Part shown: positions 13,127 through 17,959 of the stretch, piece by piece
Layout of the letters: each line of letters starts with the position of its first letter
Position numbering within the stretch: position 1 is the first letter of the stretch
Translations under genes and position numbers: made by a program
From: an uncultured Bacteroidia bacterium
Lineage (GTDB): Bacteria > Bacteroidota > Bacteroidia > Bacteroidales > F082
Assembly: GCA_902794155.1 (NCBI GenBank)
Contig: CADBGN010000001.1
Span: 86,395 to 150,394, forward strand
Length of the DNA: 64,000 nucleotides
Direction: 5' to 3'
The notes under the pieces: generated by a model
Seen by the model: the letters and a program-made list of their open reading frames with translations, nothing else
The model's database searches: none
What the model was told of the DNA's origin: nothing

Positions 13127-13196
13127 GGCCTCAACAGGTATGTCATCCCCAGGCTGGCTAGTGGGCAAAGGCAAGGGATCTATAGCTGTTGAGGCC
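13127..13196. repeat. Palindromic element D, intergenic
   Basis: Arms GGCCTCAACAGGTA and TAGCTGTTGAGGCC pair with one mismatch. The interior starts TGTCATCCC and ends GGGATCTAT, the same core as the copies inside aroB and aroA. It lies in the 319-base gap between the HD gene and porX, which otherwise holds only element E. Confidence 0.8.
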
Positions 13197-13225: not shown

Positions 13226-13303
13226 GCCTTCCATAGATTGACTACGTCGAATCTTTGATTTCCATGCCCTCGCACATATCTTCGCAGGAATGACATGGAA
13301 GGC
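13226..13303. repeat. Palindromic element E, inverted, with nested 21-base insert
   Basis: Perfect arms GCCTTCCAT/ATGGAAGGC. On the minus strand the core reads GTCATTCC ... GGA and then ATCTATGG. The final segment is split by a 21-base insert (13240-13260) flanked by AATC-like sequence. Same family as element D, opposite orientation. Confidence 0.75.
13240..13260 (-). repeat. 21-base micro-insert, copy 1
   Basis: On the minus strand it starts AATCAAAGATT and ends GACGTAGTC, two small hairpins with three-base loops. It differs from copy 2 (14982-15002) at two positions although the host palindromes are unrelated. Confidence 0.6.
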
Positions 13304-14959: not shown

Positions 14960-15059
14960 CGTCATTGCGAGGAACGAAGCAAATCGAAGATTCGACGAAG
15001 TCAATCCCGATAAAGAGCTATACATCTGGATTGCTTCGTCGTTCCTCCTCGCAATGACG
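14960..15059. repeat. 100-base palindromic repeat between porX and tsaE
   Basis: The left arm starts CGTCATTGCGAGGAACGAAG and the right arm ends CTCGCAATGACG; removing a nested 21-base insert (14982-15002) makes the arms near-complementary for about 26 bases. This CGTCATTGCGAGG...GAAGCAATCC type is a common dispersed repeat in environmental genomes. It ends 48 bases before tsaE. Confidence 0.8.
14982..15002 (+). repeat. 21-base micro-insert, copy 2
   Basis: Begins AATCGAAGATT and ends GACGAAGTC, and is followed by AATCC. It interrupts the GAAGCAATCC motif of the host palindrome, with AATC on both sides like a short target duplication. Near-identical to the insert at 13240-13260. Confidence 0.6.
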
Positions 15060-15106: not shown

Positions 15107-15544
15107 ATGAATTCCAAAGAATTCCATATTAGCGGTGTGGAGCAACTCTCGGAGGTCTCCGATTACTTGATTTCCTTGCGTGATGAAGCCGACATCATCG
15201 CGTTTTACGGCGCGATGGGTGCAGGCAAGACCACGTTAATCAAGAACTTATGCCACAAAATGGGTGTCACCGATGAGGTGAACAGCCCGACTTTCGCCAT
15301 CGTGAATGAGTATGTCACAGAGGAAGGTGAGTCGGTCTATCACTTTGATTTTTATCGTATTAAGAAGTTGGAAGAAGCTTACGATATAGGATACGAGAAC
15401 TATTTCGATAGCGGTAACCTCTGCCTCATCGAGTGGCCCGAAATGATTGAACCGCTTTTGCCCGAGAGGTACATCAGAGTTGATATTCAGCATGGCAAGA
15501 CGGATGACGAACGCGTGATTCTTTGTCAAGTGGTCGAAGAATGA
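15107..15544 (+). CDS. tsaE: TsaE, tRNA threonylcarbamoyladenosine biosynthesis ATPase
   Basis: ATPase partner of TsaB/TsaD in making t6A37 of ANN-decoding tRNAs. 145 residues with P-loop GAMGAGKTT, the conserved SPTFAIVNEY segment, and YHFDFYRIK followed by LCLIEWPEMIE. It overlaps aroB by ATGA (15541-15544), suggesting translational coupling. Confidence 0.95.
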   Translation: MNSKEFHISGVEQLSEVSDYLISLRDEADIIAFYGAMGAGKTTLIKNLCHKMGVTDEVNSPTFAIVNEYVTEEGESVYHFDFYRIKKLEEAYDIGYENYFDSGNLCLIEWPEMIEPLLPERYIRVDIQHGKTDDERVILCQVVEE

Positions 15545-16665
15545 GAAAAGTGATGGATATGACCCAAGCCTCAGAATGCATAGATTCCCGCCAACGCACG
15601 GGTCAACCTTGGAATGACATGCATCCTGAGGCTTTAGAAAGCATGTCATCCCTACGGGGGGATGAGCGGGGCATGGGATCTATGCTTTCTAAAGCCTCCC
15701 AAGTCTTCATCCTCACCGATGAGAATGTGGCACCCTTCTGGCTGCCTGAGGTAGCTCATTGGCTGCATTGTGATTCGGCAATTGATATTGTCATCAAGGC
15801 AGGCGAACAGCACAAAAACCTGCAAACCGTCCAGCGCATTTGGAAAACCTTGATGAAGCATCACGCCGACCGCAACGCCTTGATGATCAATCTGGGTGGT
15901 GGCACTGTCACCGACTTGGGTGGATTCGCAGCCTCGACTTACAAACGTGGTATCAGATTCATCAGTGTACCGACCACTCTGCTTGGAATGATTGATGCGG
16001 CGATAGGAGGGAAGACAGGAATCGATTTTGGTGGTGCGAAAAATCAAATCGGCACATTCGCTGAGGCTGAAGAGGTGGTTATCGACCCTGTTTTTTTGGA
16101 GACTTTGCCTCAAAGGGAACTGCTTTCAGGCCTTTCTGAAATGCTGAAATATGGTTTTGTGGCCGATTCTAAATTATTGGAAACCAATCTGGAAAACTAT
16201 CGGCAATTCATTGTTCGTGCCGGTGAGATCAAGCGTGAGATTGTGGCAAAAGACCCGACAGAAAATGGTCTGCGCAAGATATTGAACTTCGGTCATACTC
16301 TTGGCCACGCCATCGAAAGCCATTGTTTGACGACGGATGCTCCCCTGTTGCATGGCGAAGCCGTTGCCGTCGGTATGCTTGCCGCATTATGGCTATCTGT
16401 GAAACAATGTGGACTTAATGAACAAGTTCTAAAGGACTACGAGGAAAAGTTGCCTGTGTTGCTTTCAGAAGCGGAGATTTCGCTTTCGGAAGCCGATATA
16501 GAAGCGGTTTTAGGTTATCTTGCTCACGACAAGAAAAACAAAGGGGAGAAGCCGCAATTTGTGCTGGTTGAAGCCATTGGAAGACCCGTGTGGGAGGTTA
16601 CGGAAGACTATGACACCATCAAAAGGTCACTTGAATACATCATAAATGAATATGGGAAACGCTGA
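15541..16665 (+). CDS. aroB: AroB, 3-dehydroquinate synthase with palindrome-encoded N-terminal segment
   Basis: Second shikimate enzyme, converting DAHP to 3-dehydroquinate using NAD and a divalent metal. Core motifs are intact: GGGTVTDLGGFAASTYKRG, VPTTLLGMIDAAIGGKTGID, LSEMLKYGFV, NFGHTLGHAIES and LLHGEAVAVGM. The ATG overlapping the tsaE stop gives 374 residues. About 45 residues near the N-terminus (about 9-52) are encoded by two palindromic elements (15566-15698), with normal AroB sequence resuming at VFILTDEN. A shorter product could start at the in-frame ATG at 15682 inside the second element. Part of the usual first strand may have been replaced. Confidence 0.93.
   Translation: MRKVMDMTQASECIDSRQRTGQPWNDMHPEALESMSSLRGDERGMGSMLSKASQVFILTDENVAPFWLPEVAHWLHCDSAIDIVIKAGEQHKNLQTVQRIWKTLMKHHADRNALMINLGGGTVTDLGGFAASTYKRGIRFISVPTTLLGMIDAAIGGKTGIDFGGAKNQIGTFAEAEEVVIDPVFLETLPQRELLSGLSEMLKYGFVADSKLLETNLENYRQFIVRAGEIKREIVAKDPTENGLRKILNFGHTLGHAIESHCLTTDAPLLHGEAVAVGMLAALWLSVKQCGLNEQVLKDYEEKLPVLLSEAEISLSEADIEAVLGYLAHDKKNKGEKPQFVLVEAIGRPVWEVTEDYDTIKRSLEYIINEYGKR
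15566..15634. repeat. Palindromic element A inside aroB, inverted copy
   Basis: Arms AGCCTCAGAATGCAT and ATGCATCCTGAGGCT pair with one mismatch. On the minus strand the core reads GTCATTCC ... GGGAATCTATGC, the family consensus. It is in frame in aroB, and its right arm shares GAGGCTTTAG with element B. Confidence 0.85.
15628..15698. repeat. Palindromic element B inside aroB
   Basis: Perfect 17-base arms GAGGCTTTAGAAAGCAT/ATGCTTTCTAAAGCCTC. The core is GTCATCCC ... GGGATCTATGC. It encodes EALESMSSLRGDERGMGSML followed by SKAS, in the same frame as element C in aroA. Confidence 0.9.
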
Positions 16666-16679
16666 CCAGAATGCAATAC

Positions 16680-16749
16680 GCCGTCACCCCAACACAGAGT
16701 CGTGTCCTTCTTGTTCGGGAGATTGCGGGTCTGGGCCCGCAATGACGGC
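16680..16749. repeat. Palindromic element F at the aroB/aroA junction
   Basis: Outer arms GCCGTCA/TGACGGC enclose a strong inner hairpin (GCGGGTC ... GGCCCGC) ending GCAATGACGGC; a further CATGG/CCATG hairpin follows at about 16750-16766. This is a different family from A-E, of the 'GCGGGTC..GCCCGCAATGACG' dispersed type. It lies upstream of, or inside, the aroA N-terminus depending on the start used. Confidence 0.7.
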
Positions 16750-16762
16750 ATGGAGGTCCGCC

Positions 16763-17959
16763 ATGAGGACAAGGAGCGGGAGAGTGTTGCGTTTTGGTGA
16801 GGTTACTCTTCCTGCCAGCAAAAGCGAAAGCAACCGCGCTTTGATGATTGCTGCGTATGGTGGTTTTGCGCCTGATTTCCAGAATCTTTCGGATTCTAAT
16901 GATACCCAAGTGTTGAATGAAGCTTTAGTAAGCATGTCATTCCAGCGTGGGGTAGTGCGGGGCAGGGAATCTATGCATACTAAAGCTTCATTCATAGACA
17001 TCGCCGACTGTGGAACAGCAGCTCGCTTTATGACCACCTATCTGGCATGTCATGAAGGCGATTGGATCCTGATGGGCACGGAACGCATGAAACAGCGCCC
17101 CATTATGCCGCTTGTGAAGTCTTTGCGTGAATTAGGTGTTGATATTCAGTATGTTGAAAAAGAAGGATGTTTGCCTTTGCGAATCATAGGAAAACCGATT
17201 TCGGGCGGGAAAGTCCGAATAGAGATGCACCAAAGCAGTCAATTCGCGTCGTCCTTGCTTTTGGCTGCTCCGATGTGGCCTAAGGGGCTTGAAATGGACC
17301 TCATTGGCGAACTTGCTTCTATGCCTTATCTCGAAATGACCTTGGCAATGATGCGACATTTCGGGGCAGAGGTGGAGAGAAATGGAAGAATGATTTTTGT
17401 TAATCCAAAGCCTTATCAATCAAATAGTTTTGTGGTTGATGGGGATTGGAGCGCGGCTTCGTATTGGTACGAAATGGCAGCATTGAGTGAGGAATGCGAG
17501 ATAAGACTGCGAGGCTTGTCAATGTCATCGTTACAAGGTGATGTGGTTATTGTGGATTGGATGAAGCAATTGGGAGTTGGTACTTTTGTTGAAAAAGATG
17601 CTATTGTCCTGAAAAAAAATCCTTTTGAGAAACGTCCTGTTTGCTTCGATTTTGCTGCGCATCCCGACTTGTATCCGACCATGGCTGCCACTTGCGCAGG
17701 ATTGAATATTGATGCCACTTTTACGGGTCTCGATAACCTTGCTTTGAAAGAGTCGGATAGGGTGGGAGTTATGCAAGCGGAATTATCGAAATTGGGTTGT
17801 CGTCCTCTACATTTTTGTGCGCATAATGACCATCGTATTGTCATGGCATTGGCGCCCTTGGCACTCCTTTATGGACCGGTCGCTTTTGACCATCCCGAAG
17901 TGGTGGAGAAATCCTACCCAGGATTCTGGTCTGACTGCCCTTTTTTGCATGCGTTTTGA
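16763..17959 (+). CDS. aroA: AroA, 3-phosphoshikimate 1-carboxyvinyltransferase (EPSP synthase) with palindrome-encoded insert
   Basis: Sixth shikimate enzyme, adding PEP to shikimate-3-phosphate. Family motifs: LPASKSESNRALMIAAY, DCGTAARFMTTY, MKQRPIMPLVKSLRELG, LALKESDRV and NDHRIVMALAPL. The start at 16763 gives the usual distance to LPASKS; in-frame ATGs at 16646, 16652 and 16742 are alternatives that would overlap aroB or translate element F. Between VLNEAL and FIDIADCGTA, just before the conserved GTAxRF loop, about 27 residues are encoded by palindromic element C (16914-16994). All core motifs survive, so the enzyme is probably active. Confidence 0.92.
   Translation: MRTRSGRVLRFGEVTLPASKSESNRALMIAAYGGFAPDFQNLSDSNDTQVLNEALVSMSFQRGVVRGRESMHTKASFIDIADCGTAARFMTTYLACHEGDWILMGTERMKQRPIMPLVKSLRELGVDIQYVEKEGCLPLRIIGKPISGGKVRIEMHQSSQFASSLLLAAPMWPKGLEMDLIGELASMPYLEMTLAMMRHFGAEVERNGRMIFVNPKPYQSNSFVVDGDWSAASYWYEMAALSEECEIRLRGLSMSSLQGDVVIVDWMKQLGVGTFVEKDAIVLKKNPFEKRPVCFDFAAHPDLYPTMAATCAGLNIDATFTGLDNLALKESDRVGVMQAELSKLGCRPLHFCAHNDHRIVMALAPLALLYGPVAFDHPEVVEKSYPGFWSDCPFLHAF
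16914..16994. repeat. Palindromic element C inside aroA
   Basis: 22-base arms starting TGAATGAAGCTTTAGTA pair with the right arm ending CTAAAGCTTCATTCA, one mismatch. The core GTCATTCC ... GGGAATCTATGC matches elements A, B and D. It encodes NEALVSMSFQRGVVRGRESM and then HTKASF in frame within aroA. Confidence 0.9.

Follow-up and report, generated by a model that had tools for sequence, protein, structure and literature searches.

How can a palindromic element sit in the middle of an enzyme gene and be read through, and has the family to which it belongs become adapted to coding DNA? The locus that raises these questions is tsaE-aroB-aroA in the window, by which we mean the whole 64,000-nucleotide stretch of DNA analysed here, taken from the draft genome of an uncultured Bacteroidales bacterium (G000, 3.28 Mb, 88.55% complete). 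The initial annotation had placed a palindrome, element C, in frame inside aroA, had seen a related one, B, read in the same orientation and frame in aroB, and had proposed that the family is adapted to persist in coding DNA.

Three palindromic elements in aroB and aroA

Arm complementarity and fold delimited element C at positions 16914-16994 (plus strand). Its two 22-nt arms (16914-16935 and 16973-16994), with 37 nt between them, are 95% complementary, and the predicted fold of -40.2 kcal/mol (z -6.86) was as stable in 0 of 200 shuffles. The 41-nt core (16934-16974, plus strand, ATGTCATTCC..GGAATCTAT) is read as MSFQRGVVRGRESM, and the element appears in AroA as EALVSMSFQRGVVRGRESMHTKAS, directly ahead of IDIADCGTAARF. 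Its arms extend into the host flank as TGAATGA/TCATTCA, an extension that template switching may have produced. The gene around it, aroA (16763-17959, plus strand), encodes an EPSP synthase, with matches to TIGR01356 (2.1e-83; 280.5 bits, slightly below the cut-off of 287.25) and to EPSP synthases in the PDB down to 1e-55; its likely start was inferred from relatives, and the open frame begins at 16646. This was the single AroA match in the genome. AlphaFold was run on the window AroA and four relatives; the model had a mean pLDDT of 54.1, falling below 50 at insert residues 59-74, and is at most consistent with a loop for the insert. Given so poor a model, the loop position rests on alignment.

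Two further elements occupy the N-terminal part of AroB, a 3-dehydroquinate synthase encoded by aroB (15541-16665, plus strand; TIGR01357 at 3.7e-96 and 322.3 bits, above the cut-off of 305). The aroB start was inferred from sequence, and its ATG overlaps the tsaE stop. Element B (15627-15698, plus strand; core 15643-15683, read as MSSLRGDERGMGSM) appears in AroB as EALESMSSLRGDERGMGSMLSKAS, with the same reading in relatives, and is 81% identical to C over 72 nt (15627-15698 against 16918-16989). Element A (15566-15634, minus strand; core 15580-15620, read as IDSRQRTGQPWNDM) is a reversed copy adjoining B in the same AroB. Fold z-scores were -4.3 for A, -4.6 for B and -6.9 for C, and Rfam gave 0 matches in the window at the gathering threshold. 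These results confirmed the initial placement of C, through its arms, its fold and the AroA profile match, and the AroB and AroA readings bore out the common orientation and frame of B and C. The statement that C must be translated if AroA works was likewise supported, the element lying in frame inside the sole AroA found.

Other palindromes lie nearby. A further copy outside long ORFs has its core at 13140-13183 (plus strand; arms ggcctcaacaggt/agctgttgaggcc), and close to it is a degenerate reversed copy at 13257-13295 (minus strand, TGTCATTCC..GGAAATC). The interval between aroB and the likely aroA start holds a hairpin at 16721-16747 (minus strand, CGTCATTGCGGGCC..GACCCGCAATC) that resembles CGTC REPs as presented in the accessible part of PMC3733652. 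A second CGTC-type hairpin lies upstream of tsaE at 15029-15059 (minus strand), and both have the form CGTCATTGCG..GCAATC.

A repeat family found mainly in one genus

The core pattern ATGTCAT..ATCTAT had 36 matches in the window's genome and 0 for a reversed-pattern control, and the strict NCC..GGN form gave 27 copies. A pattern near the core named in the initial annotation (GCATGTCATYCC..GGRATC) matched the genome six times, again with 0 for the reversed-pattern control; the 12-base motif alone, with up to two mismatches, showed no excess in the window (15 matches vs 12.65 expected in shuffles). Sister genomes yielded 32 (G016), 68 (G019) and 66 (G021) listed copies with a slightly looser pattern, and 66 (G046), 36 (G040) and 46 (G048) with the strict one. 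In a survey of 60 genomes of the genus, every one had at least one loose match; 16 had at least 20, and the other 44 had 1 to 17, partly by chance. Across 295 genomes of the order, drawn from 183 genera, strict matches were many only in G000 (27) and G259 (20), both of this genus. Two other genera had one strict match each, and there was none in two further genomes of the same genus or in the rest of the 295.

The family is real, and it is concentrated mainly in one Bacteroidales genus of uncultured gut bacteria. Among the matches listed, the relatives were mostly uncultured Bacteroidales or Bacteroidia assemblies, many of them labelled RUG or derived from yak, deer, goat or sheep gut samples, and unrelated phyla were also present. 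Because the patterns required exact ATGTCAT..C and G..ATCTAT ends, degenerate copies such as those in the aroA genes of G021 and L150 are absent from the counts, which come from draft assemblies, many of them MAGs, where palindromes may be misassembled. A second subfamily, ATGTCATACCGA..GTATCTAT, was frequent in G003, and G075, with 74 loose matches and 1 strict match, probably carries this or another subfamily.

The arms vary from copy to copy (gcagcc, gcctccc, ggcctcaacaggt, ggcttcagaaagc and others). In 96 copies from G000, G016 and G021, positions one to six, counted outward, paired at 0.85-0.94 within copies vs 0.32-0.58 between copies, and within-copy matching fell to background at about position 14. 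An origin of the arms purely from the target was rejected: gcagcc, gcctccc and ggcttcagaaagc recur at many sites, so that the arms are at least partly element-borne.

As a candidate mobiliser we considered the Y1 transposase (PF01797), which was present in 15 of 16 element-rich vs 27 of 44 poorer genomes of the genus (Fisher p 0.023; Spearman 0.38; kinship ignored). The exception among the rich genomes was G075, which has 1 strict copy. At the ten Y1_Tnp loci examined of the many listed, no TGTCAT..ATCTAT element lay within about 1.5 kb, and four of the ten had loose GTCAT matches only. With no element beside these ten loci and a weak association with copy number, a RAYT as linked mobiliser was not borne out.

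Copies inside genes are a non-random subset

Coding copies beyond the window, on which the idea of a family suited to genes would depend, proved abundant. From 413 parsed copies, 56 without arms were dropped, leaving 357 armed ones. ORFs were called stop to stop, and a copy was taken as coding when its ORF had at least 200 codons, with at least 25 codons on either side of the element. On this definition 85 of the 357 lay in long ORFs and 272 did not. The 85 coding copies fell into 30 ORF families (BLASTP), of which 21 matched a known domain (through NCBIfam for AroB, through Pfam for the others) and nine did not. In ten families the element lay inside or between Pfam matches, namely those of EPSPS, GT4, FAD oxidase, radical SAM, PrmC, GH20, GH3, polyprenyl synthetase, Mfd and UvrA. 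The thresholds put window C, 48 codons from the end of the locus, and window A, 24 codons from the start of the frame, among the 272 others, together with other such copies; this misplacing of edge copies blurs the contrast between coding and other copies and does not create it.

Core length differed between the two groups. Lengths of 2 modulo 3 were found in 73 of 85 coding copies vs 156 of 272 others (Fisher p 6e-7, with each orthologue as a separate count), and 41-nt cores in 68 of 85 vs 132 of 272. When each reversed coding site was counted once, 19 of 23 had 41 nt, against the same 132 of 272 (p 0.0008); these 23 sites were listed by hand, and five of them lack a domain match. The data support the view that coding copies are a non-random subset of the family. 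One site in the gene for an FAD-oxidase/Fe-S protein is filled in L045, L123, L238, L326 and L354, where the cores measure 45, 45, 45, 42 and 39 nt, in steps of three, and are all forward and in the CHS frame. In the PrmC gene of L055 (G000, C69), one element is apparently nested in the loop of another, and the gene is open through both.

Reading frame of forward and reversed cores

In the reversed core, two of the three frames meet a stop, TAG at the start of the core and TGA at the end. Outside long ORFs, reversed 41-nt copies were stop-free in 130, 0 and 0 of 132 cases in frames 0, 1 and 2, so that A and the 49 reversed coding copies of 41 nt have their frame dictated by these fixed stops. 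The forward copies of this length outside long ORFs were open about as often in one frame as in another (115, 124 and 97 of 132 cases in the same three frames), yet 17 of the 19 forward 41-nt coding copies were in frame 0. By site, frame 0 was found in aroB, aroA, topoisomerase, PrmC and GH3, which are all five of the domain-supported forward 41-nt sites and share the frame of C (5/5, p 0.005); with L388 and L403, two ORFs that match no domain, counted in, it was found at 5/7 sites (p 0.05). We also listed forward sites of all lengths by hand, each once and PrmC as three. The favoured phase, in which third codon positions are paired, occurred at 7/15 of these (p 0.20), and at 7/11 of the domain-supported ones (p 0.04).

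Across species, forward copies in the PrmC loop take all three frames, as do those in the AroA loop. One universal reading frame was rejected on this ground, and the idea that forward cores of 42 and 45 nt owe their frame to inversion alone did not stand up. The shared frame suggested initially thus holds for B and C and for all five domain-supported forward 41-nt sites, but not for the family, whose forward copies occur in all frames. The agreement between B and C is real, with a chance of about one third taken alone, and reflects what copies of 41 nt tend to do, without being a rule. Tolerance and stop-codon filtering account for most of the pattern in frame and length.

The AroA loop and a probable inversion of the core

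The AroA loop is an insertion hotspot. In G018, G022, G007 and relatives further removed, nothing is inserted in it ahead of GTAARF, and a single element would add 13 to 16 residues relative to G018. The core is forward in the window and L130, and reversed in G016, G019, G021, L229, G046 and, in degenerate form, L150. Apparently nested elements occur in G003 (L068), where the gene is open through both, a reversed-forward pair in L149 and in G040, and two elements in G048. In G046 (L343) the loop has undergone a tandem duplication that includes the element, one copy carrying a further insert and the frame staying open, and in G020 it holds a CGTC-type hairpin. No listed AroA match of the relatives has an internal stop. 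A second AroA loop, before the (S)LQGD motif, has in-frame inserts in L058, L059, L062 and L149, of the VGPST type in L058 and L059 and longer in L149.

Comparison of the filled loops suggests that the core was inverted in place between L130 and its reversed relatives. The arms TGCCTTTT/AAAAG are common to L130 (forward) and to G016, G019, L229 and G021 (reversed; degenerate in G021). The L130 core differs by five changes from those of G016, G019 and G021, and 0/97 other 41-nt cores come as close; it differs by seven from L229 (5/97 as close) and by 13 from L150. The opposite orientations might instead reflect independent insertions with no inversion, and a hotspot that has taken nested elements, pairs, two elements, a duplicated stretch and a CGTC-type hairpin would allow for this. 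The common arms speak against such an origin, as does the finding that three reversed copies hold the cores nearest to that of L130, and we consider it unlikely. This is the only well-supported inversion.

Element C has a different set of neighbours. Its core is six changes from the L130 AroA core and 8 to 13 from those in reverse orientation, and its closest core outside AroA, at five changes, is that of aroB-B in L130. Its arms are unlike the AroA arms of the sister species and resemble those of aroB-B. With arms and core nearest to aroB-B, and the 72-nt likeness to aroB-B of its own genome, C is perhaps no inversion product; it may have been inserted more recently, or have arisen by conversion from aroB-B. 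In the AroB tree the window groups with G016, G021 and L149 (support 97/94), and the 12-row clade around this group contains filled and empty sites.

Codon positions and arm pairing in AroB

Over seven genomes, pairwise differences in the AroB-A core numbered 6, 28 and 52 at codon positions 1, 2 and 3, as would be expected for a constrained peptide; in the downstream gene they numbered 891, 387 and 2374. The AroB-B core showed no third-position bias in the same comparison (45, 72 and 61). The AroB-B arms were paired in 98 of 105 cells over 15 pairs, with both-side changes in four pairs. Three of these four join third codon positions, so that both changes can be synonymous. In the AroB-A arms 83 of 98 cells over 14 pairs were paired, with both-side changes in one pair only. 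Another way in which the arms might stay paired is selection acting on structure, whether of RNA or of DNA.

Neither G018 nor G022 has an element at the corresponding places in aroA and aroB. At the start of aroB in G003 (L068), A and B are absent and an apparent remnant of the right arm of B, MLSKAS, is present. We considered this gene as an ancestral empty site and found that less likely: the scar, together with the position of G003 among genomes that bear A and B, makes a later in-frame deletion of both elements the probable history.

A probable explanation: tolerated REP-like elements and template switching

At a probability of about 70%, the observations reflect selfish REP-like elements that are tolerated in protein loops and whose arms and orientation are reworked by template switching. 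A small repeat of REP type, with a TGTC tag, an AT-starting stem and an unpaired tail, would have spread through one Bacteroidales genus, perhaps mobilised by a RAYT-type Y1 transposase, and would occasionally have landed in genes. There it would survive only if it kept the frame, had no stop in frame and lay in a loop or linker, and the surviving copies, whose frame and position are seen directly, would be translated as extra residues. Each imperfect palindrome would also be a hotspot for template switching by DNA polymerase. Copying of one arm from the other would make arms match within a copy and differ between copies, the same copying would let arms grow into the host flank, and template switching could invert the core in place. 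One process would thereby explain matching arms, arm growth and inversion; the matching and the inversion come from comparison of copies, and template switching is the cause that we infer for them.

In frame 0, most 41-nt cores are free of stops on both strands, and in-place inversion would then leave the gene readable. A more far-reaching proposal, possible but tentative, is that the elements act as invertible coding modules. The both-strand-open core and self-homogenising arms would then let replication flip the core within a working gene, exchanging the loop peptides MSFQRG..RESM and IDSR..WNDM, and selfish palindromes would recurrently vary the loops of essential enzymes.

The initial annotation's wider proposal, that the family is adapted to coding DNA, with frame and length selected for read-through of genes, draws on the abundance and non-randomness of coding copies, on the excess of 41-nt cores among them (68/85 vs 132/272) and on the five domain-supported forward 41-nt sites in frame 0. 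Against it, forward copies occur in all frames, the favoured phase is taken at 7/15 sites, the p value for frame 0 rises to 0.05 once ORFs without domains are counted, and the reversed frame is forced by fixed stops. A filter on survivors suffices to yield the same bias without adaptation, which we regard as possible but doubtful. The palindrome might otherwise be conserved as RNA structure, for example for stability of the tsaE-aroB-aroA transcript, with the peptide as a by-product. The strong folds of A, B and C, the both-side changes in the AroB-B arms and the 272 of 357 armed copies outside long ORFs lend themselves to this, but aroA and aroB lack the element in G018 and G022, aroB of G003 resembles an in-frame loss, and no Rfam family reached the gathering threshold in the window; such conservation is in our view quite improbable. 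Very improbable indeed is that the insert is skipped in translation by ribosome bypassing, or that AroA is inactive. Palindromes are bypassed in Magnusiomyces mitochondria, according to the accessible part of PMC6649704, but the coding copies counted here are stop-free and in frame (by construction), core lengths at the one site in the FAD-oxidase gene vary by threes, and the listed AroA matches of relatives are without internal stops.

Comparison with known systems

Tolerated REP-like elements reworked by template switching would have counterparts in several described systems. CGTC REPs are short hairpins tagged with CGTC, or in many repeats with TGTC, and have AT-starting stems and a short unpaired tail; they occur in Bacteroidetes among other phyla, some wholly inside ORFs and some inside longer palindromes (PMC3733652, in its accessible part, as for the comparison that follows). 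The present copies have the terminal TGTC tag, although the search pattern required TGTC, and AT-starting stems, with ATTCC/GGAAT as well as ATCCC/GGGAT and ATGCC/GGCAT pairs. CGTC REPs have 8-9-bp stems and 4-5-nt loops, in contrast to a paired block of about 5 bp and about 22 nt between its sides here: the predicted folds of C and A have a block of 5 bp below the core, B is able to form an 8-bp stem, and the commonest core is 41 nt. The tail of CGTC REPs is mostly CCA, and here it is CTAT, which the search pattern itself required. The copy-specific complementary arms that flank each present element are a further difference.

The Rickettsia palindromic elements RPE-4, RPE-6 and RPE-7 often carry an ATGAC motif and occur in ORFs (PMC3767692, accessible part), and in-frame RPEs are summarised in a review (PMC10969869, accessible part). 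Like RPEs as described there, the present elements are in-frame palindromes in genes, are kept at orthologous sites and differ near one site from species to species; in-frame insertion in genes of known function is seen in the 21 of 30 ORF families with a domain match. The ATGAC motif is the complement of GTCAT here, a likeness drawn from description and motif and not from the element sequences. RPEs belong to a different phylum, and here the core is inverted between the same arms. With the stem and loop sizes of CGTC REPs departed from and RPEs compared by description, we class the elements as a variant, not as members of either group.

In the coding DNA of yeast, template switching between short inverted repeats leads to arm homogenisation and spacer inversion (PMC8604942, accessible part); that case concerns any short inverted repeat, and ours a dispersed repeat family in bacteria. 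Template switching has also been put forward for the palindromes in mitochondrial genes of Nematomorpha (PMC6649704), where, as here, inverted repeats lie within translated genes and both arms are coding. The longest repeats there avoid the phase that joins third codon positions, which is the phase of the 41-nt frame-0 copies here, and the accessible part of that paper describes no dispersed core such as the present family has.

A literature search found nothing on such elements in rumen Bacteroidales, which may nonetheless be in print. Translated palindromes were already known in Rickettsia and Wolbachia, and REPs inside ORFs in some other genomes. The present family is dense, each of several sister species having tens of copies in its genome, and one and the same site is found filled, empty, nested and inverted. 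Such a family would permit tests of the way in which essential enzymes gain loops from selfish repeats, and of whether template switching or selection keeps palindromes intact in coding DNA.
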